Shown one piece after another: positions 2,843 to 22,967 of a stretch of DNA of 36,950 nt. Within the stretch, counting starts at the first letter, position 1; the number at the start of each line of letters is the position of its first letter. This DNA is from Chryseobacterium gleum. GTDB taxonomy: Bacteria > Bacteroidota > Bacteroidia > Flavobacteriales_D > Crocinitomicaceae. The stretch is from NCBI GenBank assembly GCA_943326315.2, contig CALPSU020000002.1, positions 1 to 36,950 on the forward strand, given 5' to 3'. The notes under the pieces were generated by a model. That model saw only the letters and a program-made list of their open reading frames with translations, did no database searches and was not told the origin of the DNA. The position numbers and the translations under genes were made by a program.

Positions 2843-2861
2843 TAATAAAAATTATTATTTC
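2836..2861. terminator. Perfect AT-rich hairpin at the convergent ProDH / giant protein 1 junction
   Basis: GAAATAATAAT-AAAA-ATTATTATTTC: 11-bp perfect stem, 4-nt loop, overlapping both stop codons. No GC in the stem core, so termination strength is uncertain. Confidence 0.5.
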
Positions 2862-3165
2862 TAGCGAATCAAATTTACCACTCCTGTAATTACTTTTCTT
2901 TTATCCTGATTTTTTATTTTAAAATCTATCTTCCAAGTATAAGAGTCGTCTTGGCTCATTTCCCCATCAACACCATAAGTTCCTGACCAACCCTCATTTA
3001 CATCATGTGATTTAAAAACGACTTCTCCCCATCGATTATAAATAACCATTGTAAAATCAAATGGATCATATCCTTCTGTAAAAACAGGTTTAAATGTTTG
3101 ATTAATCTGATCTGCATCTGGAGTAAAAGTATTTGGAACTAAATAAATCAATTCTTCAATCATTA
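2861..3165 (-). other. T9SS type B (gliding motility-associated) C-terminal sorting domain of giant protein 1
   Basis: VPNTFTPDADQINQTFKPVFTEGYDPFDFTMVIYNRWGEVVFKSHDVNEGWSGTYG...YTWKIDFKIKN...GVVNLIR resembles the TIGR04131/CHU_C pattern. Confidence 0.85.
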
Positions 3166-6100
3166 CAACTTTTTCAAAAGTAGTATCACTACAGTTTTGA
3201 TTTGTTTTAACAATAAGAGTTATTATTTGTTCTCCAAAAACATTTTGAGGAAAAGAATGTGAAGGGTTAAAAGAATCTGAAACATCTCCATCAGCAAAAC
3301 TCCAAGAATAAGAATCAGCTCCAATGGATTTATTATCCATATGAACAATTGTATTAAAACTATTCAAGATATTTGGATAAGCACTAAAAGATGCCATAGG
3401 TTTTGAATTTATAACAATATTAATTGCTTTAGAAACACTACATCCTTCAGCCGATGAACTTTCAATAAAATAGATTCCACTTTTTGAGATTGAAGTAGGA
3501 TTTGAAATAAACGTTAATCCAGCTGAATTAGTACTAAAAGATAAACTTCCACCACTACTTCCATTAGTCCATCTTGGGTCTGTTAAATCTATTACATCAG
3601 GAGTACAAACCGCCGGAGGATTAATAATATTTAGTATTGGTAATGGATTTATAGTTACGGATAATGTTGTACTAATTGCACATTCTCCAGCTATTGGAGT
3701 GAAAGTATATATTGTTGTTCCTATAATAGAAGTGTCAACTAAAGGAATATCCCAAGAACCATTTATAATAGGATCATCGTTTGAACTTATTGAAAGTATA
3801 GGAGGCTCAGTTCCTTGACAAATTTCATTAATTGTTCCAAACTGAGGAATTCTTAAAGGATTTACGGTAATTGAAGTTACATCTGTTTTGGAACAACCAT
3901 TAATATCAATTCCAGTTACAGTATAATTAAGCGTACCAATTGGTGGAATAAAAGAAATACCATCTGTAACGCCATTATCCCAAGTGTAAGTTAGAGCTCC
4001 ACTAGCATTTAAAGTTACTGAGGTTCCTGTACAAATTACTATAGAATTTCCAGCTTCAACAATTGGTAAAGGATAAATAACTACAGAAGTTGATGCTGAA
4101 TTTTGACAATTATTTATATCAGTACCAACAACATTATAGCTAACGGTTCCTACTGAAGGAGTAAAAGCTACAGCATCAGTTAAGCCATTTGTCCAGCTAT
4201 AAGTTGAAGCTCCGCCTGCTGTAAGTATTATTTGAGTTCCTTCACAAGCGGAAGAAAAATTCGGTGTTGCTGTAACGATTGGAAGTTGATTAACAGTTAT
4301 AGTTCCTGAGGATTCTATACTGGAACATCCTGCAAAAGTATAAATTACAGAATAGGATTCCGAAGTAGCTAATGTAGCAGTTAGTGAAGCATCTGTTGAA
4401 GCGTCACTCCATAAAAATGTTCCACCAATAATGGAAGTATTAGTAGTTAATACAGCAGTTTGACCTGAACATATAGAAGTAGAATTTACGGTAATATCCG
4501 GTATAGGATTCACAGTAATAACACCTGAAGCTATTAAACTTGAACATCCTGACAAAGTATATACAACTGAATATGTAGTTGTCGAATTTGGACTAGCAAC
4601 TAAGGTAGATCCATTGGACAAATCGTTCCATAAATATGTACCACTAGGTAAAGAAGGTGTTGTTGTTAATGTAGCACTACTCCCATTACAAATAGTACTT
4701 GAACTAACTGAAATACTTGGTATAGGATTAACATTTACAGTACCAGATACCGAAAGACTTGGACATCCAAAAGTATAAATCACGGAATAGGATGTTGTTG
4801 TAGAAGGTGTAACCGAAATTGTTGAACCTGTAGAAGAATTATTCCAAACAAAAGTTCCTCCAACTATCGAAGGAGTAGCCGTTAATATCGCACTTGTTCC
4901 ATTACAAACAGTAGTTGAATTTACAGTAACTGTTGGCACCGGTGTAACTGTTACTGTTCCTAATGCTGATAAACTTTCACAACCGGCCAAAGATGTATAG
5001 ACGACAGTATAAGGTGTCGTTACTAGAGGGCTAACATTGAGAGTAGAATTAATAGAGGCATCGTCCCATAAAAAACTACCTCCTACTATAGTAGGTGTGG
5101 CTGTTAATATTGAACTACCACCTGGACAAATTTGAGTTGAATTTACCGTTACAACAGGAATTGGATTTACCGTAACTACACCAGAAGCTTCTAAACTACT
5201 ACAACCAGTCAAAGTGTAAATTACAGAATAAGTTGTAGTGGATGAAGGGCTAACTACTAAAGTTGACCCAACTGAAGAATTATTCCATAAATAGGTTCCT
5301 CCTCCAATTGAAGGAATTGCAGTTAAAGTTGAACTGGCTCCATTGCATATTGAGTTAGAATTTACGGAAACTGTTGGTGTAGGATTAACAGTTATAGTTC
5401 CAATGGAACTTATACTTGGACAAACAAAAGTATAAATAACTGAATACGATGTTGTAGATCCTGGTGAAACTGTAATACTTGATCCAGTAGAAGAATTATT
5501 CCATAAATAGGTTCCTCCAAGAACAGAAGGTGTAGCTGTTAATGTTGCACTAGTACCACTACATACTGTCTCTGAATTTACAGTTACAGTTGGGACTGAA
5601 GTTAAAGTCACAGTGCTATTTGCAGCAATACTTGAACAACCCACGAAAGACGTATATATAACTGAATAGGATGTATTTGCTAGTGGGGATACTGTTAATG
5701 AAGAAGCTGTTGATGCGTTATTCCACATAAAAGTACCTCCACCAAAAGATGGTATTGCTGTTAAAGTAGTAGAATTTCCTGGACAAATTGACGGTGAATT
5801 AACGCTTAAAGTTGGAATCGGGTTAACATTTACAGTTCCTGACCCAGCTAAACTAGAACAACCAGAATATGTATAAATTACAGTATATGAAGTTGTTGTA
5901 GAAGGTGAAACTGTTAAAGTAGCATCTACAGAAGCATCACTCCATAGATATGTACCTCCACCAATTGACGGGGAAGCTGTTAAGGTAGCACTAACACCAT
6001 TACAAACAGTTTGGGAGTTTACTGCTACAGTAGGTATTTGATTTACTGTCACAGTTCCAGAAGCAGAAAGACTTGGGCAACCATAATCATAAACTACCGA

Positions 6101-9100
6101 ATAACTTGTAGTTGAATTAGGTGAAACTGTAAGAGTAGATCCAGTAGTTCCATTACTCCATAAATAAGTACCATTTCCTATCGACGGAGTAGCTGTAAGC
6201 GTTGCACTTGATCCATTACATATTGATGTTGAGCTTACTGTAACTGTTGGAGTAGTAGTTACAACTACTGTTCCTGTTGCCGTTAAACTTGAGCAACCAG
6301 ATAAAGTATACACTACAGAATATGCTGTATTTGCTAATGGGGATACTGTTAATGTTGAACCAGTAGATGCATCACTCCATAAATAAGTACCTCCACTAAC
6401 GGCAGGTGTTGCTGTTAATGTTGCTGTTCCTCCTATACATATTGCTGGAGGGGTAATTGTTATGATCGGTAAAGAATTAACAGTCACTACACCTGAACTA
6501 GCTAAACTAGAACATCCTGCTAAAGTGTAAATTACAGAATAAGTAGTATTTACTGAAGGGGAAACTGATATTGCATCTGCTGTTGCGGAGTTACTCCATA
6601 AATATGTCCCTCCGGTTACTGATGGAGTTGCCGTTAAAGTTGCACTTGCACCAGAACAAATTGTTTGGGAATTTACTGTCACCGTTGGACCGGGGCTCAC
6701 CGTAACGGTTCCAGAAACAGGAGCACTAGAACAACCCAATGTGTATACTACTGTATAACTAGTAGTTGAATTTGGTGAAACGGTTAATGTTGACCCTGAA
6801 GATGCGTTACTCCATAAAAAGGTTCCACCTCCTAAAGATGGAGTTGCAGTTAATGTTGCACTAACACCATTACAAATAGTTTCTGAATTTACGGTTACTG
6901 TTGGTACAGCTGTTAAAGTTACACTTCCAGATCCTGACAAACTAACACAACCTATACTAGAAGTATAAACAACAGAATAAGTTGTTGTAGCTGAAGGCGA
7001 TACATTAATAGAAGATGTGGTTGATGAATTACTCCACAAATAAGTCCCTCCAGTTTCGGATGGCAAAGCATTTAGAGTTGCTGATCCACCAGGACAAATC
7101 GTTGTTGAATTTACAGTTACAGTAGGATTAGATTTTACAGTAACAGTGCCTGAACCTGGTAAACTTGGACATCCAGCAAAAGTGTAAATCACCGTATAAA
7201 TAGTTGTTGAAACAGGAGTTATTGTTAAAGTTGATCCTGTCTCTCCTGTATTCCATAAGTATGTTCCTCCTGCTATTGAAGGAGTTGCTGTTAATGTTGC
7301 ACCTATCCCTTCGCAAACTGTTTGAGAATTAGATGAAATTGTTGGAATTGAATTAACGGTAACAGTTCCAGAAGCTGAAGCACTTGGGCATCCAAATGTA
7401 TAAACCACAGAATACGAAGTAGTAGCTCCAGGTGAAACAGTTAAAGTTGCACCTGTTGTTCCATTGCTCCATAAATATGTACCTCCAACTGAAGCGGGAG
7501 TTGGAGTTGCAGTTAAGGTTGCACTAGCACCGGAACAAATGGTTTCAGAACTTACTGTTACAGATGGTGGAGTTGTTAAAGTTACTGTGCCTGATCCAGC
7601 GATACTAGAACATCCTGCTAAAGAATAAACCACTGTGTAAGTAGTAGTCGCTCCAGGTGAAACGGTTAAAGTAGATCCTGTCCCTCCTGTATTCCATAAG
7701 AATGTTCCTCCTGCTGCTGAAGGTGTAGCTGTTAAGGTAGCTGAACCTGATGAACAAATAGCTGAGGAATTTACTACAACTGTAGGGATTGATTTTACTG
7801 TAATAGTTCCAGATCCGGCCAAACTAGAGCAACCTAAGAATGTATAAACTACCGAATATGTTGTAGTTGAAGAAGGAGATATTATCAATTCTGACCCTGT
7901 CTCTCCTGTATTCCATAAATATGTTCCTCCTCCAATGGATGGAGTGGCAGTTAAAGTAGCACTAGATCCTGCGCAAACTGTTTGCGAATTTACGGATACT
8001 GTAGGAATCGGATTAACAGTAATAGTTCCTGACCCTGCCAAACTCGAGCAACCTGTTACTGAATAAACTACCGAATATGTTGTAGTTGAAGAAGGTGAAA
8101 CTGTTAATGAAGCTCCGGTTGAAGCATTACTCCATAAATAAGTACCTCCTGAAGCTGATGGAGTTGCTGTTAAAGTAGCACTTGCACCATTACAAATAGT
8201 TGATGAATTAACCGTAACTGTAGGAACTGAATTAACTGTAACAGTTCCTGATGCAGATAAGCCTGGACAACCTAAAGTATAAATTACTGAATAAGTAGTT
8301 GTTGATGTTGGAGAAACTGTTAAAGTAGAACCCGTTGAAGAATCTTCCCATAAAAAAGTACCTCCTGTTGTTGATGGGGTTGCCGTTATTGTTGCACTTC
8401 CACCCTCACATATTGTTGAGCTACTTACTGTTACTGTAGGTATAGCATTAACTGTAACTGTTCCGGAGGCCGATGGACTAGGGCAACCTAACGTATAGAC
8501 AACCGAATAGGAAGTATTTGCTGTCAATGAAACGGTTATTGATGATGAAGTAGATCCATTACTCCACAAATAAGTCCCACCAGCTGCAGAAGGGGTTGCA
8601 GTTAATGTTGCATTACCTCCACTACAAATATTAGTATTATTAACTGTTACAGTAGGTGCGGTTGTAACAGTTACGGTACTTGGCATTGATAAACTCGAAC
8701 ATCCTCCTAAAGTATATACCACAGAATAAGTTGTAGTAGCTGAAGGTGATACATTAATTGTCGATCCTGTTGCTCCATTACTCCATAAAAAAGTACCTCC
8801 TGCTGAAGATGGAATTGCAGTTAAAGTTGCGCTCCCTCCACTACAAATTGTCGTACTATTTACGCTTACTGTAGGTGTTGGATTTACATTTACAATTACA
8901 TCATCCGTAAAAGTATAGGTAAGGCCACAATTTGTTGTAGTTAATTTTGCTGTATAAGTAGTAGTTGCTAAAGGATTAACAGTTGCTGTAGTTGAACTAC
9001 TTAAAACAGTTGCACCTTGTAACCATTGAACAGTTCCAACAGTAGCACCATCTGGTAAAAATCTCCACCCTTCATTTGTTGCAGACCATTGACTTGAATT

Positions 9101-9865
9101 TCTATTAGGAACTACTGTCGCAATTGTACCATTTGAATTTTGAATTCCTAATGTTGCGTTCCCTCCATTCCAGCTAGAACATAACGGTTTATCTTTCAAA
9201 AAAACATCAATAATATTTGATGTTTCGTACAAAACAATTTGCTGATTAGCAATCTTATTATTGCATGAAGATGAGTACATCGGAACATTAGACCATGAAA
9301 CAGTAAAAGTTCTACATGGTGCAACGCCAGATGCTATATATCTAATCTCACTCACTAATCCTCCTCCTGGATCTATACTTGGATCCATATCGTGAACCGG
9401 ACCAAATATTGCATTTCCAATTAAGGGTGTGGCAGATGTTGATGGGATATTATCAGAAGATGAAAAGGCGTATCCAGATGTTTGATTCGCTTTTGCTAAA
9501 TTGAATGTCAAAGCTCCGTTTGCACCAACTACACATTGGGTGTATTGATTTCCGAAAAATGTAAAACAAAACCCAATGTTAAAAACAGCACCATAATAGT
9601 CATCTTTATTTGTTGCTAATGCTAAAGCTCCTGCTGTAAATGAATTAGGCGCATAAGGAGTCGCTGCAACAGTATAACTTGTAGTTGCTTTGATAGTATT
9701 ATAAGTGCTCGTCAAATTTGCTGGAGAGCCAGAACAAATAGTTTGATCATTACCCGCAGCAATAGATGGACATTGAGAAAACGAATTAATTGATAAAAAA
9801 AAGAAAATAATTATTCCAACAAAAAATGTTCGAATAATTATTAGTTTGTTTATGTGTGATCTCAT
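2861..9865 (-). CDS. Giant secreted repeat protein 1 (2334 aa): signal peptide, nidogen/Ig-like N-terminal region, 21 close plus 2 divergent Ig/PKD-like repeats, PKD domain, T9SS type B sorting domain (CHU_C / gliding motility-associated C-terminal)
   Basis: Single long ORF. Hydrophobic N-terminus INKLIIIRTFFVGIIIFFFLSINSFSQ. Repeats of the form PTVTVNSxTICxGxSATLTATPSxxGGTYLWSNxSTGSTLTVSPxxTTxYSVVYTxxGCxS. PKD-like FSAYPNI...SYSWSFADGDVSDSFNPSHSF. C-terminus YLVPNTFTPDADQINQTFKPVF...FTMVIYNRWGEVVFKS...GWSGTY. Confidence 0.93.
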   Translation of the reverse strand: MRSHINKLIIIRTFFVGIIIFFFLSINSFSQCPSIAAGNDQTICSGSPANLTSTYNTIKATTSYTVAATPYAPNSFTAGALALATNKDDYYGAVFNIGFCFTFFGNQYTQCVVGANGALTFNLAKANQTSGYAFSSSDNIPSTSATPLIGNAIFGPVHDMDPSIDPGGGLVSEIRYIASGVAPCRTFTVSWSNVPMYSSSCNNKIANQQIVLYETSNIIDVFLKDKPLCSSWNGGNATLGIQNSNGTIATVVPNRNSSQWSATNEGWRFLPDGATVGTVQWLQGATVLSSSTTATVNPLATTTYTAKLTTTNCGLTYTFTDDVIVNVNPTPTVSVNSTTICSGGSATLTAIPSSAGGTFLWSNGATGSTINVSPSATTTYSVVYTLGGCSSLSMPSTVTVTTAPTVTVNNTNICSGGNATLTATPSAAGGTYLWSNGSTSSSITVSLTANTSYSVVYTLGCPSPSASGTVTVNAIPTVTVSSSTICEGGSATITATPSTTGGTFLWEDSSTGSTLTVSPTSTTTYSVIYTLGCPGLSASGTVTVNSVPTVTVNSSTICNGASATLTATPSASGGTYLWSNASTGASLTVSPSSTTTYSVVYSVTGCSSLAGSGTITVNPIPTVSVNSQTVCAGSSATLTATPSIGGGTYLWNTGETGSELIISPSSTTTYSVVYTFLGCSSLAGSGTITVKSIPTVVVNSSAICSSGSATLTATPSAAGGTFLWNTGGTGSTLTVSPGATTTYTVVYSLAGCSSIAGSGTVTLTTPPSVTVSSETICSGASATLTATPTPASVGGTYLWSNGTTGATLTVSPGATTSYSVVYTFGCPSASASGTVTVNSIPTISSNSQTVCEGIGATLTATPSIAGGTYLWNTGETGSTLTITPVSTTIYTVIYTFAGCPSLPGSGTVTVKSNPTVTVNSTTICPGGSATLNALPSETGGTYLWSNSSTTSSINVSPSATTTYSVVYTSSIGCVSLSGSGSVTLTAVPTVTVNSETICNGVSATLTATPSLGGGTFLWSNASSGSTLTVSPNSTTSYTVVYTLGCSSAPVSGTVTVSPGPTVTVNSQTICSGASATLTATPSVTGGTYLWSNSATADAISVSPSVNTTYSVIYTLAGCSSLASSGVVTVNSLPIITITPPAICIGGTATLTATPAVSGGTYLWSDASTGSTLTVSPLANTAYSVVYTLSGCSSLTATGTVVVTTTPTVTVSSTSICNGSSATLTATPSIGNGTYLWSNGTTGSTLTVSPNSTTSYSVVYDYGCPSLSASGTVTVNQIPTVAVNSQTVCNGVSATLTASPSIGGGTYLWSDASVDATLTVSPSTTTSYTVIYTYSGCSSLAGSGTVNVNPIPTLSVNSPSICPGNSTTLTAIPSFGGGTFMWNNASTASSLTVSPLANTSYSVIYTSFVGCSSIAANSTVTLTSVPTVTVNSETVCSGTSATLTATPSVLGGTYLWNNSSTGSSITVSPGSTTSYSVIYTFVCPSISSIGTITVNPTPTVSVNSNSICNGASSTLTAIPSIGGGTYLWNNSSVGSTLVVSPSSTTTYSVIYTLTGCSSLEASGVVTVNPIPVVTVNSTQICPGGSSILTATPTIVGGSFLWDDASINSTLNVSPLVTTPYTVVYTSLAGCESLSALGTVTVTPVPTVTVNSTTVCNGTSAILTATPSIVGGTFVWNNSSTGSTISVTPSTTTSYSVIYTFGCPSLSVSGTVNVNPIPSISVSSSTICNGSSATLTTTPSLPSGTYLWNDLSNGSTLVASPNSTTTYSVVYTLSGCSSLIASGVITVNPIPDITVNSTSICSGQTAVLTTNTSIIGGTFLWSDASTDASLTATLATSESYSVIYTFAGCSSIESSGTITVNQLPIVTATPNFSSACEGTQIILTAGGASTYSWTNGLTDAVAFTPSVGTVSYNVVGTDINNCQNSASTSVVIYPLPIVEAGNSIVICTGTSVTLNASGALTYTWDNGVTDGISFIPPIGTLNYTVTGIDINGCSKTDVTSITVNPLRIPQFGTINEICQGTEPPILSISSNDDPIINGSWDIPLVDTSIIGTTIYTFTPIAGECAISTTLSVTINPLPILNIINPPAVCTPDVIDLTDPRWTNGSSGGSLSFSTNSAGLTFISNPTSISKSGIYFIESSSAEGCSVSKAINIVINSKPMASFSAYPNILNSFNTIVHMDNKSIGADSYSWSFADGDVSDSFNPSHSFPQNVFGEQIITLIVKTNQNCSDTTFEKVVMIEELIYLVPNTFTPDADQINQTFKPVFTEGYDPFDFTMVIYNRWGEVVFKSHDVNEGWSGTYGVDGEMSQDDSYTWKIDFKIKNQDKRKVITGVVNLIR
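4285..8886 (-). repeat. Tandem array of 21 Ig/PKD-like units (about 72-75 aa, about 219 bp each) in giant protein 1
   Basis: Counted by hand from the translation; each unit carries one IC/VC-x-G cysteine and one GC-x-S type cysteine, and starts at a Pro-rich linker (PTVTV...). Confidence 0.92.
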
Positions 9866-10208: not shown

Positions 10209-10515
10209 TTATCTTAAAAGATTTACATTTCCTGTTTTAATTATTTGAGATTCATCTTCCTTAGTTAAAAATTTAATTTTCCAAACATAACTTCCCGAAA
10301 AAGCTTGCTCACCTGAAGAATTTAATTTTCCATTCCATCCCTCATTTAGATCATTTGTTTCAAAAATGACATCTCCCCATCTATTAAAAATTAAAAAAGA
10401 ATACTCTTTTGGAGATACGCCTGATCCAAATATTGGTTGGAAAATTTCATTACTACCAATACCATCTGGTGTAAATGAATTTGGAACAAAGTATAATAAT
10501 TCTTCCTTTTCAAAA
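10209..10515 (-). other. T9SS type B C-terminal sorting domain of giant protein 2
   Basis: VPNSFTPDGIGSNEIFQPIFGSGVSPKEYSFLIFNRWGDVIFETNDLNEGWNGKLNSSGEQAFSGSYVWKIKFLTKED...TGNVNLLR. Confidence 0.85.
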
Positions 10516-13500
10516 ACATATCTAATTGCAGTGTCTTTACATCCAAAATCAGATATTGCAATTAAAATAACCTCATGCTTGCCATAAGAATCACTTGGAT
10601 AAATATGAGTTGGATTTATTGATAAATAATCTGTGCTTCCATCTCCGAAATCCCAAATGTAAAATTCAGCACCTATAGAAGAGTTCGGAAAAGAAGTAAT
10701 CGGACTAATGTTCGAAAATTCCTGAGGTGTTGCGATAAAAGCTGCTACAGGTTTTGGATGAATCGGAACAGTAATTGTTGTATCAACTACACAACTACCT
10801 GCTTCATTTATTGGAGTGAAAGTGGTTGAAATTAATCCTGGATTAGCTGTACTAACTGGTGTCCAAGTTCCATTAACAATTGGGGAATTGATAGTAGATA
10901 AAGGCATAACCGGATTTTCTTTCCCTTGACAAACAGAGAGATCTTCTGGACTAAACATTGGAGTAACAGAAGGTTTTACCAATACATTTATACGAGCTGT
11001 ATCACTAATACAACCAGTTAATATGTCTTTCTGAGCAACTGAATAATATGTAAATATTGGTGTTGTAGTATTTTGAGATGGTGCAGAACCCAATGGAACA
11101 TTAGAATTTGAAGCATACCAAATTGGTGTCAATCCTGCCCCACCCGAAGGGACAGGAACATATCCCAAAGTACTTGCATTTTCACCTTTACAATAAGAAA
11201 CAAAAGAAGTAACCAATGGCTTACTTGGCTTTGGTTTTATATTCAAATTAGCTGTTGACGAGTTCTGACATCCTGTTGTGCTATTAGTAACAGAAACTGA
11301 AAAAGAATTTAATCCTGGGTTTAAAGCTGTAAATGGTAAATTGTTCACTATTCCATTACTCCAACTTGGAACGCCAGAATTTGAAGTTGCATTTAATGTT
11401 ATTTGTTGTCCTTCACAAACTTCAGCTGAATAAGTAGAAATAGCTATAACTGGTAATGGATTAACGTTTATTGTCCCTGATACTGGTAAAGTTGCACAAA
11501 GTCCACCGGTTAAAGAAATTGTATAACTGAAATTATTTTGAATGGATGGTGCACCTGAGATTGTAATCAAATTTGCATTCCAATTACCTGTAATTCCAGA
11601 AGGTAAGCCTGAGAATATAGCTCCGGTAGCTCCTGTTGTATTATAAAAAATGTTTGAAATCGTTGAACTTAAACACGGAGTTTGGGCATTTGAACCTACA
11701 GCTGAAGTAAGTGTAATTGTATTTTTGGCATTTACAGTAATTGAACCAGATTTTGTAATTATTCCACAACCTCCTGTTAAAGTTACAGTATAAGGAAAGA
11801 TGCCAACTGAATTTGTCATACCAGTTATTGTATAAGTATCATTTGACCATGAACCACTTAAACCTGCTGGTAAAACTGTAATAGTTGCTGCTGAAACTCC
11901 AGTTGTGGTATATACAATTGGTGTTATTTGTGTATTTGGACAAACTGCTTGTGCATCTGTACCAACATTTGAACTTAAAGTAATCGTATTATTAGGAATG
12001 ACATTAAACGAACCTAATTCTGATATTGATCCACATCCGCCAGTTAAAGTAATTGTATAATTCTGATTAACAGAAACCGTAGGAGCTCCAGAAATAGTTA
12101 CCACACCTCCACTCCAAGAACCTATAACTCCCGCTGGTAAGCCAAAGAAAGTTGCACCTGTTGCACCTGAAGTATTATAGGTAATATTTGAAATTGAAGT
12201 ATTAATACAAGGTGTAGGTCTATTTGAAGATAAAGCAGAAGTTAATGTAATTGTATTCAATGGTGTTGATGTAATCATTCCAGATAAAGAAGCTGAACCA
12301 CAACCGCCTATTGTTGTTACCGTATAATTATAAGGTAATAAACTTGAAACAGAAGGAGTTCCTGATATTGTAACTATATTATTAGACCAATTTCCATTTA
12401 CTCCTGCAGGTAAACCTGAGAAAGAAGCTCCTGTTGCACCAGAAGTTGAATAGGTAATATTACTAATCGGCACATTCATACAAACCGTTTGGTTATCAGT
12501 TCCTCCTAATGATGTAATATTTAATGCATTAACTGTTACTATATCAATTCTTCCACCTGTTGTAACTAAACCACAACCTCCTTGAAGTGCAATTGAATAA
12601 GTATTGAGGCCTGAATTTGCAGGAGTACCAGAAATAGTAATAACACCAGTTACCACATTAAAATTTTGTGTCATTCCTAATGGTACTCCGAAGAATACTG
12701 CATTAGTAGCTCCTGTAGTAGAATAGGTTACATCAATTGCCGGATTTGTAACACAAATAGATTGGTTATCAGAACCTAAAGCAGATGTCAAAGCAATAGT
12801 ATTTAAAGCTGTAACATTAATTGTACCACCTAATGTTGGGTTACCACATCCACCAGATAATGAAATTATATAGCTAAATGGACCTGATTGTGTTGGTGTA
12901 CCAGAAATAGTAAATGAATTTCCTACCAAAGCACTCACTGTTAAACCTTGTGGCAATCCAGTGACAACTCGATCCGTTGCACCAGTTGTTGTATACGTTA
13001 TATTTGTTATTGGAGTACCTATACAAAGCGTTTGAGCCGCAGTTGCAGGTAAAGAAGTTAAAACAATTGTATTATCAGGTGAAACATTAATCGTACCTCC
13101 TGCCGAAATATTTCCACAGCCTCCTGTTAATGTTACTGTATATGCAGTACTTCCTGAAACGCTCGGTATTCCATATATTCTTGCTACATTTCCAATCCAA
13201 GTTGAATTTAACCCGGATGGTAAAGAAGAAAATGTTACTCCTGAAGCACCTGTTGTAGAAAATGTAATATCAGTTATTGAATTGTTTATGCAGACAGATG
13301 GATTATCAGAACCAATTCCTGAAGTTAAAGCTATTGTGTTTAAAGTCGAAACACCTATAGTACCATTAATTGTTGCAGGTCCAGATCCTCCAGTTAAAGA
13401 AATTGTATAAGATGTTGGTCCACTAAAAATTGGAGTTCCCGATATTGTAATAGTATTAGACGTGAAATTTCCAGTAACTCCAACTGGTAAACCACTAAAA

Positions 13501-16500
13501 CTTGCAGCTGTATATCCAGATGTTGTGTAAGTAATATTAGTTATTGGATTACTTACACAAGTTATTTGAGAATCTGTACCTGTTATAGAGGATAAAATGA
13601 ATGTATTTGTTGGTAAAACATCAATCGTACCAGTAATTACTCCTGCTCCACAGCCTCCACTCATTGTAATAGTGTACATTTTTAAACCAGCAACTGTTGG
13701 TGTTCCTGAAATCGTTAAAGTATTGGTTGGTAAATCAAAAACATAACCTATTCCAGAAGCCAAATTACTAACGGTAAAACCTGTTGCTCCGCTTGTTAAA
13801 TAACTGATATTAACAATTGGAGTATTGATATAAACTGTTTGAGCATCTGTTCCAATTGCAGAACTTAACACAATTGTATTATTTGCTTTCACATTAAATG
13901 TCCCAGTTGCAGTAATCGTTCCGCAGCCACCTGTGAACGCTAATGAATAATTATGAGTTCCTATTATTGCAGTTGATCCAGAAATTGTTACAACATTTCC
14001 TGATAAAGATGCAGAAATTCCAAGTGGTAAACCTGTTGCAGTTAAAGAAGTTGCTCCTGTTGTTGCGTAAGTAATCGCGGTTAAAGGAGAATTTACACAA
14101 ATAGTTTGTGTATTGTCTGTTCCAACTAAAGAAGATAAAGAAATGGTATTGTTTGGAGTAACATCAATAGTTCCAAACGCTTGAATATTTCCACAACCAC
14201 CAGTTAAAGTAACGGTATAACTATAATTACCTGCTACTGATGGCGTTCCGGAAATCGTAACTGTATTAAATCCAAACGAACCTGTTACACCAGTTGGTAA
14301 ACCTGTAAAAGTTGCTCCTGTTGCATGAGCTGTTGTGTATGAAATAGTTGTAATAGGATTGTTAATACATAAATTCTGATTATTTGTACCTGCAACCAAC
14401 GGAGCGGTAATCGTGTTTATAGGTTTAATCACGACAGTTACAGGTTTCACGTCAGAACAAGCTGTAACACTTACTGTTTTAATGAAATAAATTCCACTTG
14501 TTGTAATAGCAGTTTCCCCTATTACCGGTGTCGTACAACCTATTTCATTCCAATAAGAAATGACCCCTGTTTCTGCTCCTGTTTGATTGAATGCTGAAGT
14601 AAGATTAACTGTAGCTGGTGCACAAACCGCTAATGGATTAGTAACAGCTAAAGAAACTGGACAACTACAATCATTCACTGCAACTGTAACAGGTTCTATA
14701 ACAAAACAAGTTCCTATTGTTGATTTAATATAGTAAGTACCTGAAAGAGGAACTGCAGTTTCATCTGCAATTGGAGTTAAATTACACGTTGCATCTTCCC
14801 AATACGAAAGTATTGAACCTGAAGAAGAACCTAAAGTAACAGAGGCATTAGTTAAATCTACCATTGCTGGTTGACAAGCTGCTGCTGGAGAAGTAATCGT
14901 TAAAGTTGGCACTGCATTGATTGTTATTGTTCCATTTACAGAAGGTATAGAACAACCCCCGATTAATACAATTGTATAAGTTCCTCCATCTAAAAGTGAA
15001 GTAGTTCCTGAAACCGTTAATGTATTTCCAGATAAAGAACTTGTAATTCCCGTTGGAAGTCCAGTAACATTAGCACTCGTTACAGCTCCACTTATGTTGT
15101 ATGTAATTGGTGAAATAGCATCCGTAACGCAAATCGCCTGATTATCTGAACCTACTATAGAACTCAAAGTAATCGTGTTTAAAGGAGTAACAATAATAGA
15201 ACCTGAAGCGTTTACTACTCCACATCCACCTGTTAAAGTTAAAGTATAATTAAAAGTTCCTGAAACCAAAGATGTTCCTGAAATCGTATAAATCCCTCCA
15301 GATAAATTCCCTGTCACACCTGCTGGTAAACCTGAATCTGTCACTCCAGTAGCACCAGATACAGTATATGTAATGTTTGTTATTGAGGTATTAATACATT
15401 TGGTTTGAGCATTCGTTCCAAAAGCAGAAGTGAAATTAAGGATAGAAGTTGGCGTAACTGTTATAATTCCTGAAGCAGTATTTGAACCACATCCACCAAT
15501 CATACTTACTGAATAAGGGAATGATCCTGATCCAGTTGGTGTTCCTGTAATTGTAACTAAATTACCAACATAAGAATAAGTTACTCCTGCAGGTAAACCT
15601 GAAATAGTAACACTAGTAACTGCTCCAGTTGTTGTGAAAGTAATATCTGTTAAAGCACTTGCCAAACAAATAGTTGGATTGTTTGAAGAAACTCCTGATG
15701 TTAAAGTAATTGTATTATCTAGTGTTACATCAATTGTTCCTGAAGTTGAAATATTACCACACCCTCCAGTTAAAGTTACTGTGTAAGCAAAATGTCCTGA
15801 AACATTTGGTGTACCTGAAATCGTTACTATGTTTGAGGACCAAGTTCCATTTACTCCTGCTGGTAATCCTGAGAAAGTAGCTCCGATTGCTCCTGAAGTA
15901 ACGTATGTAATTGGAGTAATTGCCGAATTAATACATTTTGTTTGTACCTCTGTTCCTACAAGTGAAGATTGTGTAATGGTATTATCTAAAATAACCCCCA
16001 TTGTTCCTGATTTTGAAACAACACCACATCCACCAGTTAAATCGACAGTATACGTATAAGCTCCAGCAACAGTTGGAGTTCCTGAAATAGTAATTACATT
16101 CAAAGCCCAAATTGCTGAAAGACCTGCTGGAATATTCGTGAAATTCGCTCCAGTTGCACCTGTTGTAGAATAGGTTATTGGAGTAATTGCTGTATTTATA
16201 CAAGGAGTTTGTGAATCCGTTCCAGCTAATGAACTTAATGCAATGGTATTTCCTGTGATAATAGTACCTGAACCTGTTACTGATAAACTTCCGCAACCTC
16301 CATTTAAGGTAATCGTGTAAGGATAATTCCCTGCTACAACTGGTGTTCCGGATATTGTAATTGCATCTGCTAGCCATGTTCCAGTAACACCTGAAGGTAA
16401 GCCTCCAAAAGTTGCGCTTGTAGCACCTGTAGTTGAATAAGTAATATTCGTTAAGATGTTGTTTACACACACTGTTTGAATATCCGTACCAATAGCAGAT

Positions 16501-19500
16501 GTAAGAGTGATCGTTTTGTCAGGTGTAACGGTAATAGTTCCAGTTTTTGTAATCGTTCCGCAACCTCCTGTCAAGGTAATTGTATACGGAAAAGATCCTG
16601 ATACAGTTGGTGTACCTGTAATCGTATATACATTTCCAGACCATGAACCTGAAACTCCAGCAGGCAAACCTGAATCAGATCCACCGATAGCTCCAGTTGT
16701 TGAGTATGTAATTGGAGTAATTAACGTATTGATACATTTTGTTTGAGTATCTGTTCCTAACGCAGAAGATAAGTTAATTGTATTATCAGGAGTAACAGCA
16801 ATTGAACCTATAGTTGAAATGTTACCACAGCCTCCTGTCAATGTTATGGTATAAGAATATGGAGATGCTACTGAAACAGAGGGTGAACCCGAAATCGTAT
16901 AAATATTTCCTAACCATGAACCTGTAACTCCTAATGGTAAACCAGAATCTGTAGCTCCTAAAACTCCAGTTGTTGAATAAGTGATATTGGTAATAGGCGT
17001 GTTGATGCATTTAGTCTGATTATCCGTTCCTAATAAAGAAGTTAAAGTAATTGTGTTTAAAGGAGTAACGTTGATTGTTCCGTTAATCGTTACTGTACCA
17101 CAACCGCCTGTCAAAGTAATTGTATACGGAAAAGATCCTGATACAGAGGGTGAACCCGAAATCGTATAAACACTACTCGACCAAGATCCAGTCACTCCAG
17201 CAGGTAAACCTGAATCACTTCCACCAATAGCTCCAGTTGTTGAATAAGTAATAGGTGTTATTAAAGTATTGATACATTTTGTTTGATTGTCTGTTCCTGC
17301 GGCTGAAGTTAAACTGAACGTGTTATTAGGTGTAACGGTAATAGTACCTGTTGCTGTGATATTTCCACAACCTCCAGTTAAAGTAACAATATAAGTATAT
17401 GGTGATCCAACTGAAACAGAAGGAGAGCCAGTAATCGTATATACATTTCCAGACCAAGATCCTGAAACACCAGAAGGTAAACCTGAATCCGTAGCTCCAA
17501 GAACTCCAGTAGTTGAATAGGCAATATCAGTTATTGAAGTATTGATACATTTGGTTTGATTGTTAGTTCCTCCTGCGGATGTTAAAACGATAGTATTTAA
17601 TGCCGTTACATTAATTGTTCCTCCAGTCGTTATTGTTCCGCAACCTCCTGTTAATGTTACGATATATGGGTAAGATCCTGCAACAGTCGGTGTACCAGTA
17701 ATTGTAAATACATTTGCATTCCAACCACTTGTAAAACCTAAAGGCAAACCAGATACACTAGCACCAGTTGCCCCAATTGTTGAATACGTAATAGTTGTTA
17801 TTGGAGTATTCACACAAATCGTTTGTAAATCAGTACCAGCTGCAGAAGTTAATGAAACTGAATTAATAGGTAAGACTGTAACTGTAGCAGAAACTGTTGT
17901 TGAACATCCTAGAACAGTAACAACATAATTAATTAAGCTTGTACCATTTGTTATACCTAAAACTACTCCTGAGGAAGAATTAACTGAAGCAATTCCTGTT
18001 GAAGCACTATTCCAAACACCTCCTGAAGTACTGTTACCTAAAGTAGTTGAAGAAGCTGGACAAACGGATAACGTTCCTGTAATTGCTCCTACTATTGGTA
18101 AAGAGTATACTGTAACGGTTGTTGTGACAGTTTTTGTACACCCACCTGAAGTTACTGCATAACTAATCAGACTTGTTCCCGCAGATACTGGAGTAACAAC
18201 ACCTGTTAAAGCATTAATAGTAGCAACACCTGTTGAAGCACTTGACCAAACACCACCAGTAGTAGCATTTGCTAAAGTAGTAGTAGCTCCCATACATACA
18301 TTTGTTGTTCCAGTAATTGCAGGAACGGTTGGTAATGGAAGGGTTTGAACATTAACCGTTGAAGTATTAGAACAACTGAATGCATTAGTGGTAGTAAAAG
18401 TGTATGAAGTTGTTCCTGCGGCTACTGGAGTTAAGGTTGGAGTTAATGTGGATGAACCAGCTGTCATATCCGCTGTTGGTGACCAAGTGTATGTTGTTGC
18501 GATTGGATTATTGAAATTTAAAGTCCAGCTATCAATTGTTCCAGTATTTCCTGTAAATGAATCACCAATTCGAATTGACCAAGTTCCATTTGCAGAAGCA
18601 CAAGCTTGGCTATTCGTCATAAAAGTTGCAAAAGCTGAAGCTGTTCCTGATGGAATAAAATTACCAGTAAAAGGAGCGGAACCAGCCGACATTAATGTTG
18701 AAGCCGTGGAAGTATATGTAGTATTTACAAAATTGTCTCCTGTACTTCCATTTGCATTTAATAATTGTATACTTTGATTACAAGGATTAAATAAATAAGC
18801 AATTAAATCTTGATCATTTGGATGGGAAACATTTAAAACTAAAGAAGATAAACTCCACCCTGTTTGTAATCCAGAAACAGTAAGATTAGATGTTGCATAT
18901 GTACCAGTAGATCCATTCCAACCTGCACCAACTAAATTATCAGGAATTGCAGTTGTAGAGGTATTTAAAAACGCTGAATTAATCGTTACTGGAGCATTAA
19001 CACTTGCTGATAATGTTACATTTCCTCCTAAACAAAATGGGGTAACACTAGCAATATTTGAAGTAGTTTGCGGCATTACGTTGATTGTTCCTAATGCTGT
19101 TAAAGCTGTACATCCTCCAGATAAAGTAACAGTATACTTATAGATGACGGGTAAAGTCGAAGTAGGTGTTCCAGAAATAGTAATAACATTTGCAGCCCAA
19201 TTCCCAATAACTCCTGTTGGTAAGCCCGAGAAGGTTGCACCTGTTGCACCTATTGTAGCATATGTAATATTTGTTATAGGTGAAGTTAAACAAACCGTTT
19301 GAGCGTTGGTTCCTACTGCAGATGTTAAGGCAATTGAAGTACTTGAATTCACTATAACTGTAGAGGATTGAACTGGAGATAAATCATATCTACAAGCTCC
19401 AATTTTAATTGCATTCACAACCAAAACTACATTGGAGGTTGCATTAGCTTTTGTAATTGCTAACAATCCTAGAGCATCTGTTAAAGTTGTTTGTTCAGCT

Positions 19501-22500
19501 CCGCCATCAATTGTATAGATTAAATAGCAAGGTAAAGCAGCACTTAAATCGTCAATAACCGAAACATTAAAAGTAGCAGTTTGACCAGAACAAATAGGAG
19601 TAACGGGAGTAATTGTTACTGTAAAAACTGGAATATAGGGAATTCCTTCAAATGCTCCCATCCATGGACAAGTTGGACGAATTAATAATGTAGAATAATC
19701 ATCCGGAACAGTCGCTTGTAAATTATCACCTGTACTTTGAACATTATTTTTATTGTAATTTGTTACATGTCCAGTCGCATCAATCGTAATTGTTCCAGTT
19801 TTACAATTTGCAGCCTGACTAGAAGCACCTTGAAAAGCCGCTAATGTTGTTTTATTTACTGCATTCCAATTTGATAATACAGCTCCGGAAGACCCACTTG
19901 CTTCCATCCAGTTGTAATCAAATGTTCCTGAAGGTGCACCTGAATATCTAACAGCAATATGACTTGCAGTTCCACCAGAATTTGTTCTATTATTTTGGAA
20001 AACATTATTTCTAACATTTGGTGTACCTGTACTCCCCAAAAATGCAAAAGCATTTGAATTATTTGTTCCAGTTGTAGCCGTTCCAAATAATTTAACTGTA
20101 TTGTGATATATATTAACCGCTTTTGTTGAATTTGAATTATCCATTATCCCACGGAATGTTGGAGAGTTAATTCCATTATCTAATAATACTATATTATTAT
20201 ATACATTTGCTTGATTAGTTGAACTTATAAGAATCCCAACTAACCAAGCGCTTGAGCTACTTGATACAACACTCATTCTTTGAATTAAGTTTTTCTGTAT
20301 TGTTGCATTTCCATTTCCAGTTAAATATGCCCCTGAACAAACACCTGCACCTGATAAACTAATGTCTTGAATACTATTTTCTGAAAATAAAACAGGAGTA
20401 CTGAAGGTAATAGAAGGGTTACTGTAAAAACCTGAAAATGCACCTTGACTTGTATTAGTTGAAGCAGTTGTAATATTTTGTATTGTATTACCCGTTATTT
20501 TAATAACATTGGCTGCCCCAAATCCTAAACCAATACTTTTTAAAGAAAATGCTAAAATAGAACCTCCTGAAGCACTTGATACACCAGAAAAATTTTGAAT
20601 AGTATTACCGGATGCTGTAACAGAACCAGAAGCAATCATAATTCCATAGGCAAGACCTGCATTTTGAATCGTTACAGTATTTATTGTATTTCCTGTAATC
20701 TTTGCTACTGAAGTTAAAGAAGAACCTGGATCAAAGAATACACCTGCAAAAGCACCACTTATTGTTGAAGTGTTAGTGCTGTTTGAAGTAATTGTATTAA
20801 TCGTATTTGATAAGATTTGAATATCAGCTGTAGCAGAAGGAGAAGTACCTTCATCAATATGTATTGGACGAATACCTCCTGCTGTTCCCGACGAAGAAAG
20901 AGTTAAATTATGAATGTTATTATTTTGAATTAAAACCCCTCCTTCACGTTCATAATGAATACCATTCAATAAACCATTTCCTGAAGCAGTAATTGCATAG
21001 ATTTCATTATCATGAATATTAGGTACACCAGACATAGTAGATCCTGTTTTCACTCCAATCCCAGTAAATGAACCTGCACCATAACTTAGCGTACCAGCAG
21101 TTTTACAATTTGTTAATGTATTCGAATAAACAGAAATAACGGATGTTGAAGAAAAATCAGAATAATCACCTATTTCAATTAAAAGTAAACTTGAATAGGT
21201 ATCCGTTCCTAGTTGCGTAAAATTTTGAATACTATTATTATGAATACTATAATTTGTTGCACTTACCGATCCTCCAGACATTGCCCCAATAGCAGAAGCA
21301 TAATCGAAAGTATTAAAAGACATATTATCTATATCTGTTGCATTTCCAAATGTATTGTTATAAATCTGGTGGCTGCCATATCCATTTACATAAACAAGCC
21401 ATTGGGAAGTTGTACCTCCTGAAGTAATTGTTTTGATATCAAAATTTTGAAAAACATTATCATTTATTATTGCATCATAATCTGTTTCCCAATTTATAAC
21501 CTTGTAATGAATCCCTAATGCAGTTCCTTGTAATTTAATATTAGCGGCAAGTGTTCCAAACGTATTATTATTAATTGCAGCAGCGCCAACATTATAAATA
21601 TGGATAGCCATAAACTCAGGTGAATTTGTACCTGATGCTAGGGTATGAGTCATATTTATTCCTGCAAATTTATTATAAGCAATAGAACTTGTAGTACTTG
21701 TGCTGTAATAATATATTAGTTTTGTATTAGGTGATTGCCCTGCTAAAGCTCCAGTTATACTTATATCACTTGCGACAGTTTGACTGCCAAAAACATTTCC
21801 TTTTCCAACAGATCCAATAATATATCTAGCTGATCCTTTAGCGGATATACAAGTAAAAGGACTACTTACATGCGCATCAATCTGAAAATTTGAAAATACA
21901 TTTTGCTCTATAGTTATTAATCCGTCAGACGTAGATTCAATACAACTCAATCCCTGACTAGTTGCTGTTGAACTTGACAAAGACAAAGTAAATTTTGTTC
22001 CACCAGCAGAAGCAGCCGTACCTCCAAAATAATTTCCATTTACATTTGCACCATCACTACTAAGTCCTAATTCAAGAAAAACAATATCATTATAATAATC
22101 TGTTGAAATTGAAATTGAGCTAGTTTGATAAAATGAATTTCCAGTAATTACCCAGTTTCCATTGGTAGCACCTCCACTACCATATAATCTCACCCAACTA
22201 TCTCTACCTAAATCATAAAAATGATTTCCACTTAATGTCGTACCGGAATTATTTGTTATTGCGCTTGAACTTGAATATAATCCATATCCCGGAGTTCCGC
22301 CTGATGATTTTGTAATATCATTGTATCTTATAATATTTCCAGAATTGATTCCTGATGCAAAATCACCAATATTAATTACTTGACCTAAAGTTGGAGATGC
22401 AGGAAAAACGGCTGAAGTATAAGAAGAGCCTTTAAAAGTAGTGTACTGAATTATGTTATTTGTTGCACCAGTACTTAGCGTTAATGCATTTGCCCATTGA

Positions 22501-22967
22501 CCTGTATTTGGATTATCGATAATTAAACTATTAACCGCTCCATTACCATTTAATCGACCATCAATAGTAACATTATCAGCTCCTTTTAACTCAACTAAAG
22601 CATCATTCAAATTTAAAGAAATTGTCCTTGTTCCTCCTGTTGGATAAATCGAAACTGAAGTATAGTTTGCAGCACCTGTTCCACTTGAATTTAAAGTTGC
22701 AGAAGCAGTCTCGGTAGAGTTAGCATTGATTTGTAAAACAACAGCACCGGTCAAAGTACCATTGTTAATTGCAGTAAAAGCTGCTTTCAAAGTGGTATAA
22801 GTTTGGCCTGTACCAACTGTAGATTGAGAATAGATATTCCCAAAAGAAAATATACAAAGCAAAACCAAAAAAAATGGCTTTAATAGCAAAGTTAATTTCA
22901 TCGAATAGATTGATTTTATGAAAGTGGAAAGAATTAAATCGGATGGACTATAGTATGTTTTTTTCAT
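10209..22967 (-). CDS. Giant secreted repeat protein 2 (4252 aa): signal peptide, beta-helix-like N-terminal region, P-domain-like module, 23 Ig/He_PIG-like repeats, PKD domain, T9SS type B sorting domain
   Basis: Single 12.76 kb ORF. Signal peptide best seen from Met23 (MKLTLLLKPFFLVLLCIFSFGNIYSQ), so the start may be internal. Repeats NTITLTSAxGTDxQTxCINTxITxITYSTTGATGATFSGLPAGVxGSWSxNxVTISGTPxVSGxxPYTxTLTGGCGxI. C-terminus YFVPNSFTPDGIGSNEIFQPIF...YSFLIFNRWGDVIFETNDLNEGWNG. Confidence 0.93.
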   Translation of the reverse strand: MKKTYYSPSDLILSTFIKSIYSMKLTLLLKPFFLVLLCIFSFGNIYSQSTVGTGQTYTTLKAAFTAINNGTLTGAVVLQINANSTETASATLNSSGTGAANYTSVSIYPTGGTRTISLNLNDALVELKGADNVTIDGRLNGNGAVNSLIIDNPNTGQWANALTLSTGATNNIIQYTTFKGSSYTSAVFPASPTLGQVINIGDFASGINSGNIIRYNDITKSSGGTPGYGLYSSSSAITNNSGTTLSGNHFYDLGRDSWVRLYGSGGATNGNWVITGNSFYQTSSISISTDYYNDIVFLELGLSSDGANVNGNYFGGTAASAGGTKFTLSLSSSTATSQGLSCIESTSDGLITIEQNVFSNFQIDAHVSSPFTCISAKGSARYIIGSVGKGNVFGSQTVASDISITGALAGQSPNTKLIYYYSTSTTSSIAYNKFAGINMTHTLASGTNSPEFMAIHIYNVGAAAINNNTFGTLAANIKLQGTALGIHYKVINWETDYDAIINDNVFQNFDIKTITSGGTTSQWLVYVNGYGSHQIYNNTFGNATDIDNMSFNTFDYASAIGAMSGGSVSATNYSIHNNSIQNFTQLGTDTYSSLLLIEIGDYSDFSSTSVISVYSNTLTNCKTAGTLSYGAGSFTGIGVKTGSTMSGVPNIHDNEIYAITASGNGLLNGIHYEREGGVLIQNNNIHNLTLSSSGTAGGIRPIHIDEGTSPSATADIQILSNTINTITSNSTNTSTISGAFAGVFFDPGSSLTSVAKITGNTINTVTIQNAGLAYGIMIASGSVTASGNTIQNFSGVSSASGGSILAFSLKSIGLGFGAANVIKITGNTIQNITTASTNTSQGAFSGFYSNPSITFSTPVLFSENSIQDISLSGAGVCSGAYLTGNGNATIQKNLIQRMSVVSSSSSAWLVGILISSTNQANVYNNIVLLDNGINSPTFRGIMDNSNSTKAVNIYHNTVKLFGTATTGTNNSNAFAFLGSTGTPNVRNNVFQNNRTNSGGTASHIAVRYSGAPSGTFDYNWMEASGSSGAVLSNWNAVNKTTLAAFQGASSQAANCKTGTITIDATGHVTNYNKNNVQSTGDNLQATVPDDYSTLLIRPTCPWMGAFEGIPYIPVFTVTITPVTPICSGQTATFNVSVIDDLSAALPCYLIYTIDGGAEQTTLTDALGLLAITKANATSNVVLVVNAIKIGACRYDLSPVQSSTVIVNSSTSIALTSAVGTNAQTVCLTSPITNITYATIGATGATFSGLPTGVIGNWAANVITISGTPTSTLPVIYKYTVTLSGGCTALTALGTINVMPQTTSNIASVTPFCLGGNVTLSASVNAPVTINSAFLNTSTTAIPDNLVGAGWNGSTGTYATSNLTVSGLQTGWSLSSLVLNVSHPNDQDLIAYLFNPCNQSIQLLNANGSTGDNFVNTTYTSTASTLMSAGSAPFTGNFIPSGTASAFATFMTNSQACASANGTWSIRIGDSFTGNTGTIDSWTLNFNNPIATTYTWSPTADMTAGSSTLTPTLTPVAAGTTSYTFTTTNAFSCSNTSTVNVQTLPLPTVPAITGTTNVCMGATTTLANATTGGVWSSASTGVATINALTGVVTPVSAGTSLISYAVTSGGCTKTVTTTVTVYSLPIVGAITGTLSVCPASSTTLGNSTSGGVWNSASTGIASVNSSSGVVLGITNGTSLINYVVTVLGCSTTVSATVTVLPINSVSLTSAAGTDLQTICVNTPITTITYSTIGATGASVSGLPLGFTSGWNANVFTITGTPTVAGSYPYIVTLTGGCGTITTGGTINVTALNTIVLTSAGGTNNQTKCINTSITDIAYSTTGVLGATDSGLPSGVSGSWSGNVYTITGSPSVSVGSPYTYIVTLTGGCGNITATGTITVTPNNTFSLTSAAGTDNQTKCINTLITPITYSTTGAIGGSDSGLPAGVTGSWSSSVYTISGSPSVSGSFPYTITLTGGCGTVTINGTINVTPLNTITLTSLLGTDNQTKCINTPITNITYSTTGVLGATDSGLPLGVTGSWLGNIYTISGSPSVSVASPYSYTITLTGGCGNISTIGSIAVTPDNTINLSSALGTDTQTKCINTLITPITYSTTGAIGGSDSGLPAGVSGSWSGNVYTITGTPTVSGSFPYTITLTGGCGTITKTGTITVTPDKTITLTSAIGTDIQTVCVNNILTNITYSTTGATSATFGGLPSGVTGTWLADAITISGTPVVAGNYPYTITLNGGCGSLSVTGSGTIITGNTIALSSLAGTDSQTPCINTAITPITYSTTGATGANFTNIPAGLSAIWALNVITISGTPTVAGAYTYTVDLTGGCGVVSKSGTMGVILDNTITQSSLVGTEVQTKCINSAITPITYVTSGAIGATFSGLPAGVNGTWSSNIVTISGTPNVSGHFAYTVTLTGGCGNISTSGTIDVTLDNTITLTSGVSSNNPTICLASALTDITFTTTGAVTSVTISGLPAGVTYSYVGNLVTITGTPTGSGSFPYSVSMIGGCGSNTASGIITVTPTSILNFTSAFGTNAQTKCINTSITNITYTVSGATGVTDSGLPAGVTGNLSGGIYTISGTSLVSGTFNYTLTLTGGCGVVNASGSIIVTPLNTITLSSIVGSDNQAICVTDAISPITYNISGAVTSANVTGLPTGITSSLSGNTLTVSGTTSLLDGGTYTIVLIGGCSIPSVNGTITINAVPTLTITSPAAACQPAMVDLTNASVTLGSSSGSILSYWEDATCNLTPIADETAVPLSGTYYIKSTIGTCFVIEPVTVAVNDCSCPVSLAVTNPLAVCAPATVNLTSAFNQTGAETGVISYWNEIGCTTPVIGETAITTSGIYFIKTVSVTACSDVKPVTVVIKPINTITAPLVAGTNNQNLCINNPITTISYTTAHATGATFTGLPTGVTGSFGFNTVTISGTPSVAGNYSYTVTLTGGCGNIQAFGTIDVTPNNTISLSSLVGTDNTQTICVNSPLTAITYATTGATSLTATGLPLGISASLSGNVVTISGSTAIIGTHNYSLAFTGGCGTITATGTFNVKANNTIVLSSAIGTDAQTVYINTPIVNISYLTSGATGFTVSNLASGIGYVFDLPTNTLTISGTPTVAGLKMYTITMSGGCGAGVITGTIDVLPTNTFILSSITGTDSQITCVSNPITNITYTTSGYTAASFSGLPVGVTGNFTSNTITISGTPIFSGPTSYTISLTGGSGPATINGTIGVSTLNTIALTSGIGSDNPSVCINNSITDITFSTTGASGVTFSSLPSGLNSTWIGNVARIYGIPSVSGSTAYTVTLTGGCGNISAGGTINVSPDNTIVLTSLPATAAQTLCIGTPITNITYTTTGATDRVVTGLPQGLTVSALVGNSFTISGTPTQSGPFSYIISLSGGCGNPTLGGTINVTALNTIALTSALGSDNQSICVTNPAIDVTYSTTGATNAVFFGVPLGMTQNFNVVTGVITISGTPANSGLNTYSIALQGGCGLVTTGGRIDIVTVNALNITSLGGTDNQTVCMNVPISNITYSTSGATGASFSGLPAGVNGNWSNNIVTISGTPSVSSLLPYNYTVTTIGGCGSASLSGMITSTPLNTITLTSALSSNRPTPCINTSISNITYNTSGATGATFFGLPAGVIGSWSGGVVTISGAPTVSVNQNYTITLTGGCGSISELGSFNVIPNNTITLSSNVGTDAQAVCPNTQITPIVYTTTGVSAATITVLPAGLSGSWSNDTYTITGMTNSVGIFPYTVTLTGGCGIITKSGSITVNAKNTITLTSAVGSNAQTPCLSSTISNIFYNTTGATGAIFSGLPSGITGNWNANLITISGAPSIQNNFSYTISLTGGLCATLPVSGTINVNPLPVIAISTYSAEVCEGQQITLNATSNSGVPSWSNGIVNNLPFTALNPGLNSFSVSVTNSTTGCQNSSTANLNIKPKPSKPLVTSFVSYCKGENASTLGYVPVPSGGAGLTPIWYASNSNVPLGSAPSQNTTTPIFTYYSVAQKDILTGCISDTARINVLVKPSVTPMFSPEDLSVCQGKENPVMPLSTINSPIVNGTWTPVSTANPGLISTTFTPINEAGSCVVDTTITVPIHPKPVAAFIATPQEFSNISPITSFPNSSIGAEFYIWDFGDGSTDYLSINPTHIYPSDSYGKHEVILIAISDFGCKDTAIRYVFEKEELLYFVPNSFTPDGIGSNEIFQPIFGSGVSPKEYSFLIFNRWGDVIFETNDLNEGWNGKLNSSGEQAFSGSYVWKIKFLTKEDESQIIKTGNVNLLR
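11462..14420 (-). repeat. Second block of 11 tandem units of about 89 aa in giant protein 2 (units 12-22 in my numbering)
   Basis: Hand count from NTITAPLVAGTNNQNLCINNP... to ...NTITLTSAVGSNAQTPCLSS...TINVNPL. Confidence 0.88.
14430..14915 (-). repeat. Two divergent modules interrupting the repeat array of giant protein 2
   Basis: PTLTITSPAAACQPAMVDLTNASVTLGSSSG...SGTYYIKSTIG and SLAVTNPLAVCAPATVNLTSAFNQTGAETG...SGIYFIKTVSV. Homologous to a single module in giant protein 1 (NIINPPAVCTPDVIDLTDPRWTNGSSGG...SGIYFIESSSA). Confidence 0.8.
14915..17868 (-). repeat. First block of 11 tandem units of about 89 aa in giant protein 2 (units 1-11); one more related unit lies upstream of the P-domain near 19070-19350
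   Basis: Hand count from NSVSLTSAAGTDLQTICVNTP... to ...NTITLSSIVGSDNQAICVTD...TITINAV. GLPxGV...TISGTPxVxG resembles the He_PIG Ig-like pattern. Confidence 0.88.
18510..18990 (-). other. Proprotein convertase P-domain-like module within giant protein 2
   Basis: IPDNLVGAGWNGSTG...SLVLNVSHPNDQDLIAYLFNPCNQSIQLLNANGSTGDNFVNTTY...GTWSIRIGDSFTGNTGTIDSWTLNF. Confidence 0.65.
19690..22790 (-). other. Beta-helix-like N-terminal region of giant protein 2 (about 1000 aa)
   Basis: Many N/S/T/G-rich segments of the type GNNIIRYNDITKSSG, ISIYSNTLTNC, IQNNNIHNLT, KITGNTIQNI, VRNNVFQNN, typical of parallel beta-helix repeats. Confidence 0.7.

Follow-up and report, generated by a model that had tools for sequence, protein, structure and literature searches.

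The window analysed here (a 36,950-nucleotide stretch, positions 1 to 36,950 of contig CALPSU020000002.1, assembly GCA_943326315.2) has as its first giant gene one whose product contains 21 tandem Ig-like units, and the locus raises the question of whether these units follow an order of three kinds (A, B and C) and whether such an order means that the array grows and is homogenised three units at a time through unequal exchange, as the initial annotation proposed. The analysis shows that the three-unit order is real, ancient and weak, and that it is not evidence for present-day three-unit exchange. In this way the order separates the growth of the rod, by blocks, from its present behaviour, which is apparently fixed.

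Domain organisation of the giant protein

The gene (2861-9865, minus strand, as are all the features of the protein given below) encodes 2334 aa. The protein has a signal peptide-like start, a unique N-terminal domain (8873-9712), the 21 units (72-74 aa each, occupying 4280-8872), a further Ig-like region, a PKD_4-like domain that falls below the gathering score (3179-3337) and, at the extreme C-terminus, a CHU_C type IX secretion signal domain (PF13585, 2900-3139) that matches its profile with 45.3 bits against a cut-off of 27. It is a type B (CHU_C) protein of the type IX system, with secretion predicted from this C-terminal match, and also, by profile, a tandem-domain protein of the Ig_7 family (PF19081), with a whole-protein score of 253 (cut-off 27.3) and 17 matched stretches. 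Units 13-15 are modelled with confidence (mean pLDDT 92.7) as three beta-sandwiches in a row, and the domain make-up suggests a role as a stalk or adhesin.

Homologues of the N-terminal domain, 56-62% identical, are found in two congeners (L020 and L021), where they are joined to other repeat types: HYR-like repeats stand behind the domain in one genome (G010) and a PAGATAPGN-type Ig-like unit in the other (G011). Stalks appear to have been swapped behind a conserved N-terminal head among these congeners. No unit-by-unit ortholog of the array was found in the genome set compared, and the ortholog search over contigs of named genomes returned only more distant matches (35-48% identity). The named relatives, without exception, and the CHU_C signal indicate Bacteroidota as the source.

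The A-B-C order of the units

The initial annotation had placed units 5-19, numbered from the N-terminus, in a repeating B-C-A order with blocks of about 657 bp. This reading holds: when all 21 units were extracted the named motifs were present, permutation and leave-one-out tests agree, and the five B-C-A blocks, which together span 8002-4718, measure 660, 657, 654, 657 and 657 bp. Class B comprises unit 5 (7784-8002, with SQTVC), unit 8 (7124-7342), unit 11 (6467-6685), unit 14 (5813-6031, assigned by motif and phase) and unit 17 (5156-5374); the SQTVC/SQTIC motif is seen in units 5, 8, 11 and 14, and the segment WNTGETGS is common to units 5 and 8. Class C comprises unit 6 (7565-7783, ending in VTLT), unit 9 (6902-7123, with TSSIGC), unit 12 (6248-6466, ending in VVVT), unit 15 (5591-5812, with TSFVGC) and unit 18 (4934-5155, with TSLAGC); the expected VT[LV]T/VVTT endings are present, and units 9, 15 and 18 carry both ICPG and the longer TSxxGC loop. 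Class A comprises unit 7 (7343-7564, with SETIC), unit 10 (6686-6901), unit 13 (6032-6247), unit 16 (5375-5590) and unit 19 (4718-4933), and SETIC/SETVC is seen in units 7, 10 and 16. All A units have the shorter loop before the second cysteine, although the length of about 72 aa ascribed to this class is wrong for unit 7, which reaches 74 aa through a 2-aa insertion elsewhere.

Towards the C-terminus, unit 20 (4499-4717) is placed in class B by its score, in keeping with the phase, so that the B-C-A order covers units 5-20, one unit more than first described, and unit 21 (4280-4498) is the most diverged of all and has no clear class. At the other end, units 1 (8654-8872), 2 (8438-8653) and 3 (8222-8437) lie outside the phased run and score as C, A and A, followed by unit 4 (8003-8221), which scores as B and is the nearest to the consensus; with the reading C, A, A, B the phase is broken before unit 5.

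Within units 5-19, DNA identity peaks at offsets 3, 6, 9 and 12, with means of 0.677, 0.662, 0.661 and 0.648 respectively, against 0.624-0.649 at the others. Since units 5-19 had been picked by eye, the permutation test was corrected over all segments of at least 9 units and periods 2-7; period 3 alone stands out, with no other close, at a corrected p=0.0022 for DNA (best segment, units 4-19) and p=0.0006 for protein (units 4-20). Leave-one-out prediction with class profiles was right for 14 of 15 units, unit 14 being the sole miss, against a null mean of 5.3 and a null maximum of 11, and 0 of 300 label shuffles did as well. The array is, on this similarity excess beyond chance at multiples of the offset, a higher-order (multi-unit) repeat. 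The source genome is a fragmented assembly (2.54 Mb, 340 contigs, 83% complete), which could lend some credit to an assembly artefact or a chance pattern, but the units are too diverged to confuse an assembler and the corrected p values are at most 0.002, leaving this explanation a probability close to nil.

Distribution of the signal along the unit

The period-3 signal is concentrated at the domain junctions, namely in the 13 residues that open each unit and the 12 that close it. The protein excess is 0.084 in alignment columns 1-13 and 0.088 in columns 66-77, against 0.013 (p=0.10) in the core columns 14-52, where a weak excess is also found in DNA (p=0.023), and the columns that best distinguish the classes are 7, 59 and 74. 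The unit ends form the linker and, going by the usual arrangement of Ig domains, would also form the pole in contact with the following domain.

This concentration of the signal on unit ends and amino acids, with essentially none in codon choice, is what would be expected if selection alone had produced the pattern, that is, if units had arisen in any order, with no block duplication, and had later taken on three types of junction to give the rod the register of three domains that it requires (such as a regular twist or a spacing for partner binding). We regard this as quite unlikely, because the sister pairs at offset 3 described below are supported by whole-unit DNA, the core also carries the weak DNA excess, shared oddities such as WNTGETGS fall within the core and sister arrays show visible block duplications. 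History and selection are not fully separable at this locus, since same-residue codons are near saturation.

Age and origin of the array

DNA identity between units is 55-75%, with no pair above 75%, and the period-3 excess amounts to only about 3 points on an identity of 65%. Codons for the same residue are identical in 0.491 of cases, while 0.442 would be expected at saturation, so that they are nearly saturated, and they show no excess at offset 3, where the value of 0.10 lies within the range of the other offsets (0.05-0.13). Third positions do show an offset-3 excess in units 5-19, which is nominally significant (p=0.007, uncorrected) and loses significance over units 1-21. The longest exact tract shared at offset 1 is 33 bp (units 4 and 5), against 23 bp at offset 3. 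This is not a homogenised, satellite-like higher-order repeat, identity being about 67% at offset 3 and about 64% between neighbours, with codon choice free of any offset-3 excess. In a giant adhesin-like protein of a bacterium, a faint multi-domain order can thus still be recognised long after silent sites have nearly saturated, with the memory at the junctions.

In the unit tree, the supported sister pairs include 5/8 (93/89 support), 16/19 (93/85, with 75% DNA identity) and 17/20 (97/95), all at offset 3, and also 2/7, which is not; supported branches are few, and the tree neither recovers nor rejects the three classes as clades. Array growth was also simulated, using simple models (neutral sites with rate variation and no selection) that rank modes of growth and do not give rates. 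Growth by single units reached the observed period-3 score of 4.7 in 0 of 120 runs. With random block sizes of 1-6 units, a score of at least 4.7 was reached at period 3 in 12% of runs and at some period in 62%, whereas pure three-unit growth at matched divergence gave a median of 12.9.

The proposal of growth in three-unit steps is therefore upheld in part. Single-unit duplications alone are unlikely to account for the array, given the simulations and the three sister pairs, and it is well supported that block duplication lies behind it, although three need not be special. The part that finds no support is expansion and homogenisation at the present day. The period-3 excess and the sister pairs at offset 3 would agree with ongoing unequal exchange in three-unit steps, but a near-identical pair of units is found nowhere in the array, same-residue codons lack an offset-3 excess, identities from block to block are uncorrelated between the classes, the signal sits at the domain ends, pure three-unit growth would score far above the observed value and it is offset 1, not 3, that has the longest exact tracts, so that we consider it very unlikely.

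A stronger competitor is that blocks of 1-6 units were duplicated in a random mix and period 3 came out on top by chance, a view that is compatible with the explanation preferred here and differs from it only on whether three is special. The 62% of simulated runs and the periods of 2, 3 and 5 seen in relatives speak for it; against it, the order spans 16 units and extends up to offset 12, for which repeated in-phase copying would be needed. We place it slightly short of even odds.

The preferred explanation, to which we assign a probability of about 0.7, is that the array would be the Ig_7 rod of a type IX-secreted stalk or adhesin, shaped by ancient block duplication, drift, selection on junctions and a frozen length. 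Units 5-20 would have been built long ago by multi-unit block duplication, in which a three-unit block (or multiples of it) was repeated several times, with the phase breaking near the N-terminal end of the array. After these duplications the units would have drifted apart, and class identity would have persisted chiefly at the contacts between the end of each domain and the beginning of the one that follows, probably because selection maintained the three kinds of junction. The array would now be frozen in length, since its units are too unlike one another for frequent slippage or recombination. This explanation is weakened by the identities between blocks, whose correlation among the three classes is near zero, whereas simple repeated block copying should correlate them, although the comparison has low power at this divergence.

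Comparison with known repeat proteins

Among solved structures, the only convincing sequence match of the unit profile (E=1.6e-4) is to GhpA (grappling hook protein A) of Aureispira sp. CCB-QB1 (PDB 9flp and relatives), whose fragments are also the top 8 fold matches; both proteins are long Ig-like rods. Chain A of 9flp has two stretches in which unit matches recur every 249 aa (at 3079/3328/3577 and at 1737/1986/2235/2484), which corresponds to three units. This three-unit repeat is sharper than that of the window protein, with near-equal scores, as read from the table of profile matches and not from the GhpA sequence itself. GhpA differs in its size (5,898 aa), in its units of about 83 aa and in an identity of 23-27% in the fold alignment. 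The rod of the window protein is related to GhpA in sequence and in fold, with nothing that points to hook formation. The match ties the family to GhpA, whose cryo-EM structures can be used for asking what mechanical role a three-domain repeat has. A broader idea, which we hold to be unlikely though somewhat less so than selection alone, is that the giant Ig rods secreted by the type IX system in Bacteroidota follow a junction code of three domains, which GhpA would in principle share and in which A-B, B-C and C-A interfaces would differ, set the twist of the rod or the spacing of its ligands and be kept by selection after the silent-site history has been nearly erased. The giant rod is otherwise an ordinary type IX-secreted protein, and is of note as a fossil record, for the focus on its junctions and for the link to GhpA.

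For domain repeats, an established way of growing is the duplication of several domains at once, which is reported to be the common mode and suggested to be favoured, perhaps, by selection against aggregation (Bjorklund et al. 2006, PMC1553488). Such repeats (nebulin, for instance, by sevens) likewise give an autocorrelation peak at a multi-unit offset, but that work deals mainly with eukaryotes, while here the array is a bacterial one of Ig_7 domains with a very weak periodicity focused on junctions. Periscope proteins are likewise surface stalks of tandem folded domains, in which variable length accompanies repeats of high identity, reaching 82-100% between adjacent domains in Sgo_0707 (Whelan et al. 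2021, PMC8201768); the 55-75% DNA identity between the present units shows no such likeness of adjacent repeats. The A-band of titin also has ordered Ig-type super-repeats along a giant rod, and its pattern reflects the structure of the filament (PMC7427331); titin is eukaryotic, and the window protein has no known binding partner. Our search of the open literature found no paper in which higher-order repeats are named for bacterial adhesins.

Arrays in related genomes

Of 150 genomes of the family, 129 contain Ig_7-like matches, and the period test was applied to some thirty other array runs of at least 7 units each. A strong higher-order period was found in one of them (L052, period 5, p=0.0005, with no third-codon-position signal), and another (L083) is marginal at period 3 in protein (p=0.024, with no correction for how many arrays were tested). 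L052 is a 26-unit Ig_7 array (G103:C6) collinear with L097 (G398:C11), from a second species, over 7.1 kb at 92% DNA identity, and both copies stop at a contig edge.

Arrays that contain near-identical units show live block duplication. In L049, units 5 and 6 were copied to 7 and 8 (98% and 94% identity, with 86% between 5 and 6), which is a recent two-unit block, and L061 has a three-unit pattern in which units 1/4 and 2/5 share 84% and 86% but 3/6 only 77%. In sister species, on the other hand, diverged arrays can for the most part be aligned one unit against one, and the diagonals are clean for the pairs L048/L082, L059/L085 and L087/L069 and noisier for more distant pairs. Since such diverged arrays are largely collinear, with little or no change in length, a fixed length would be expected for the window array as well, and is probably a better prediction than strain differences in steps of 219 aa.

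The neighbouring protein in the window (P0002, 4,252 aa, 10209-22967, minus strand) has 23 units of about 89 aa. Its units 3-6 (aa 1791-2149) form a local A-B-A-B pattern with 70-79% DNA identity, units 4 and 6 being the closest at 79%, and no array-wide period was detected in this protein (best p=0.98, with slots that are approximate where the array is interrupted). Elsewhere in the source genome, contig C165 ends inside a second Ig_7 array (L089) with two nearly identical adjacent units, which is perhaps a live array that has been collapsed.
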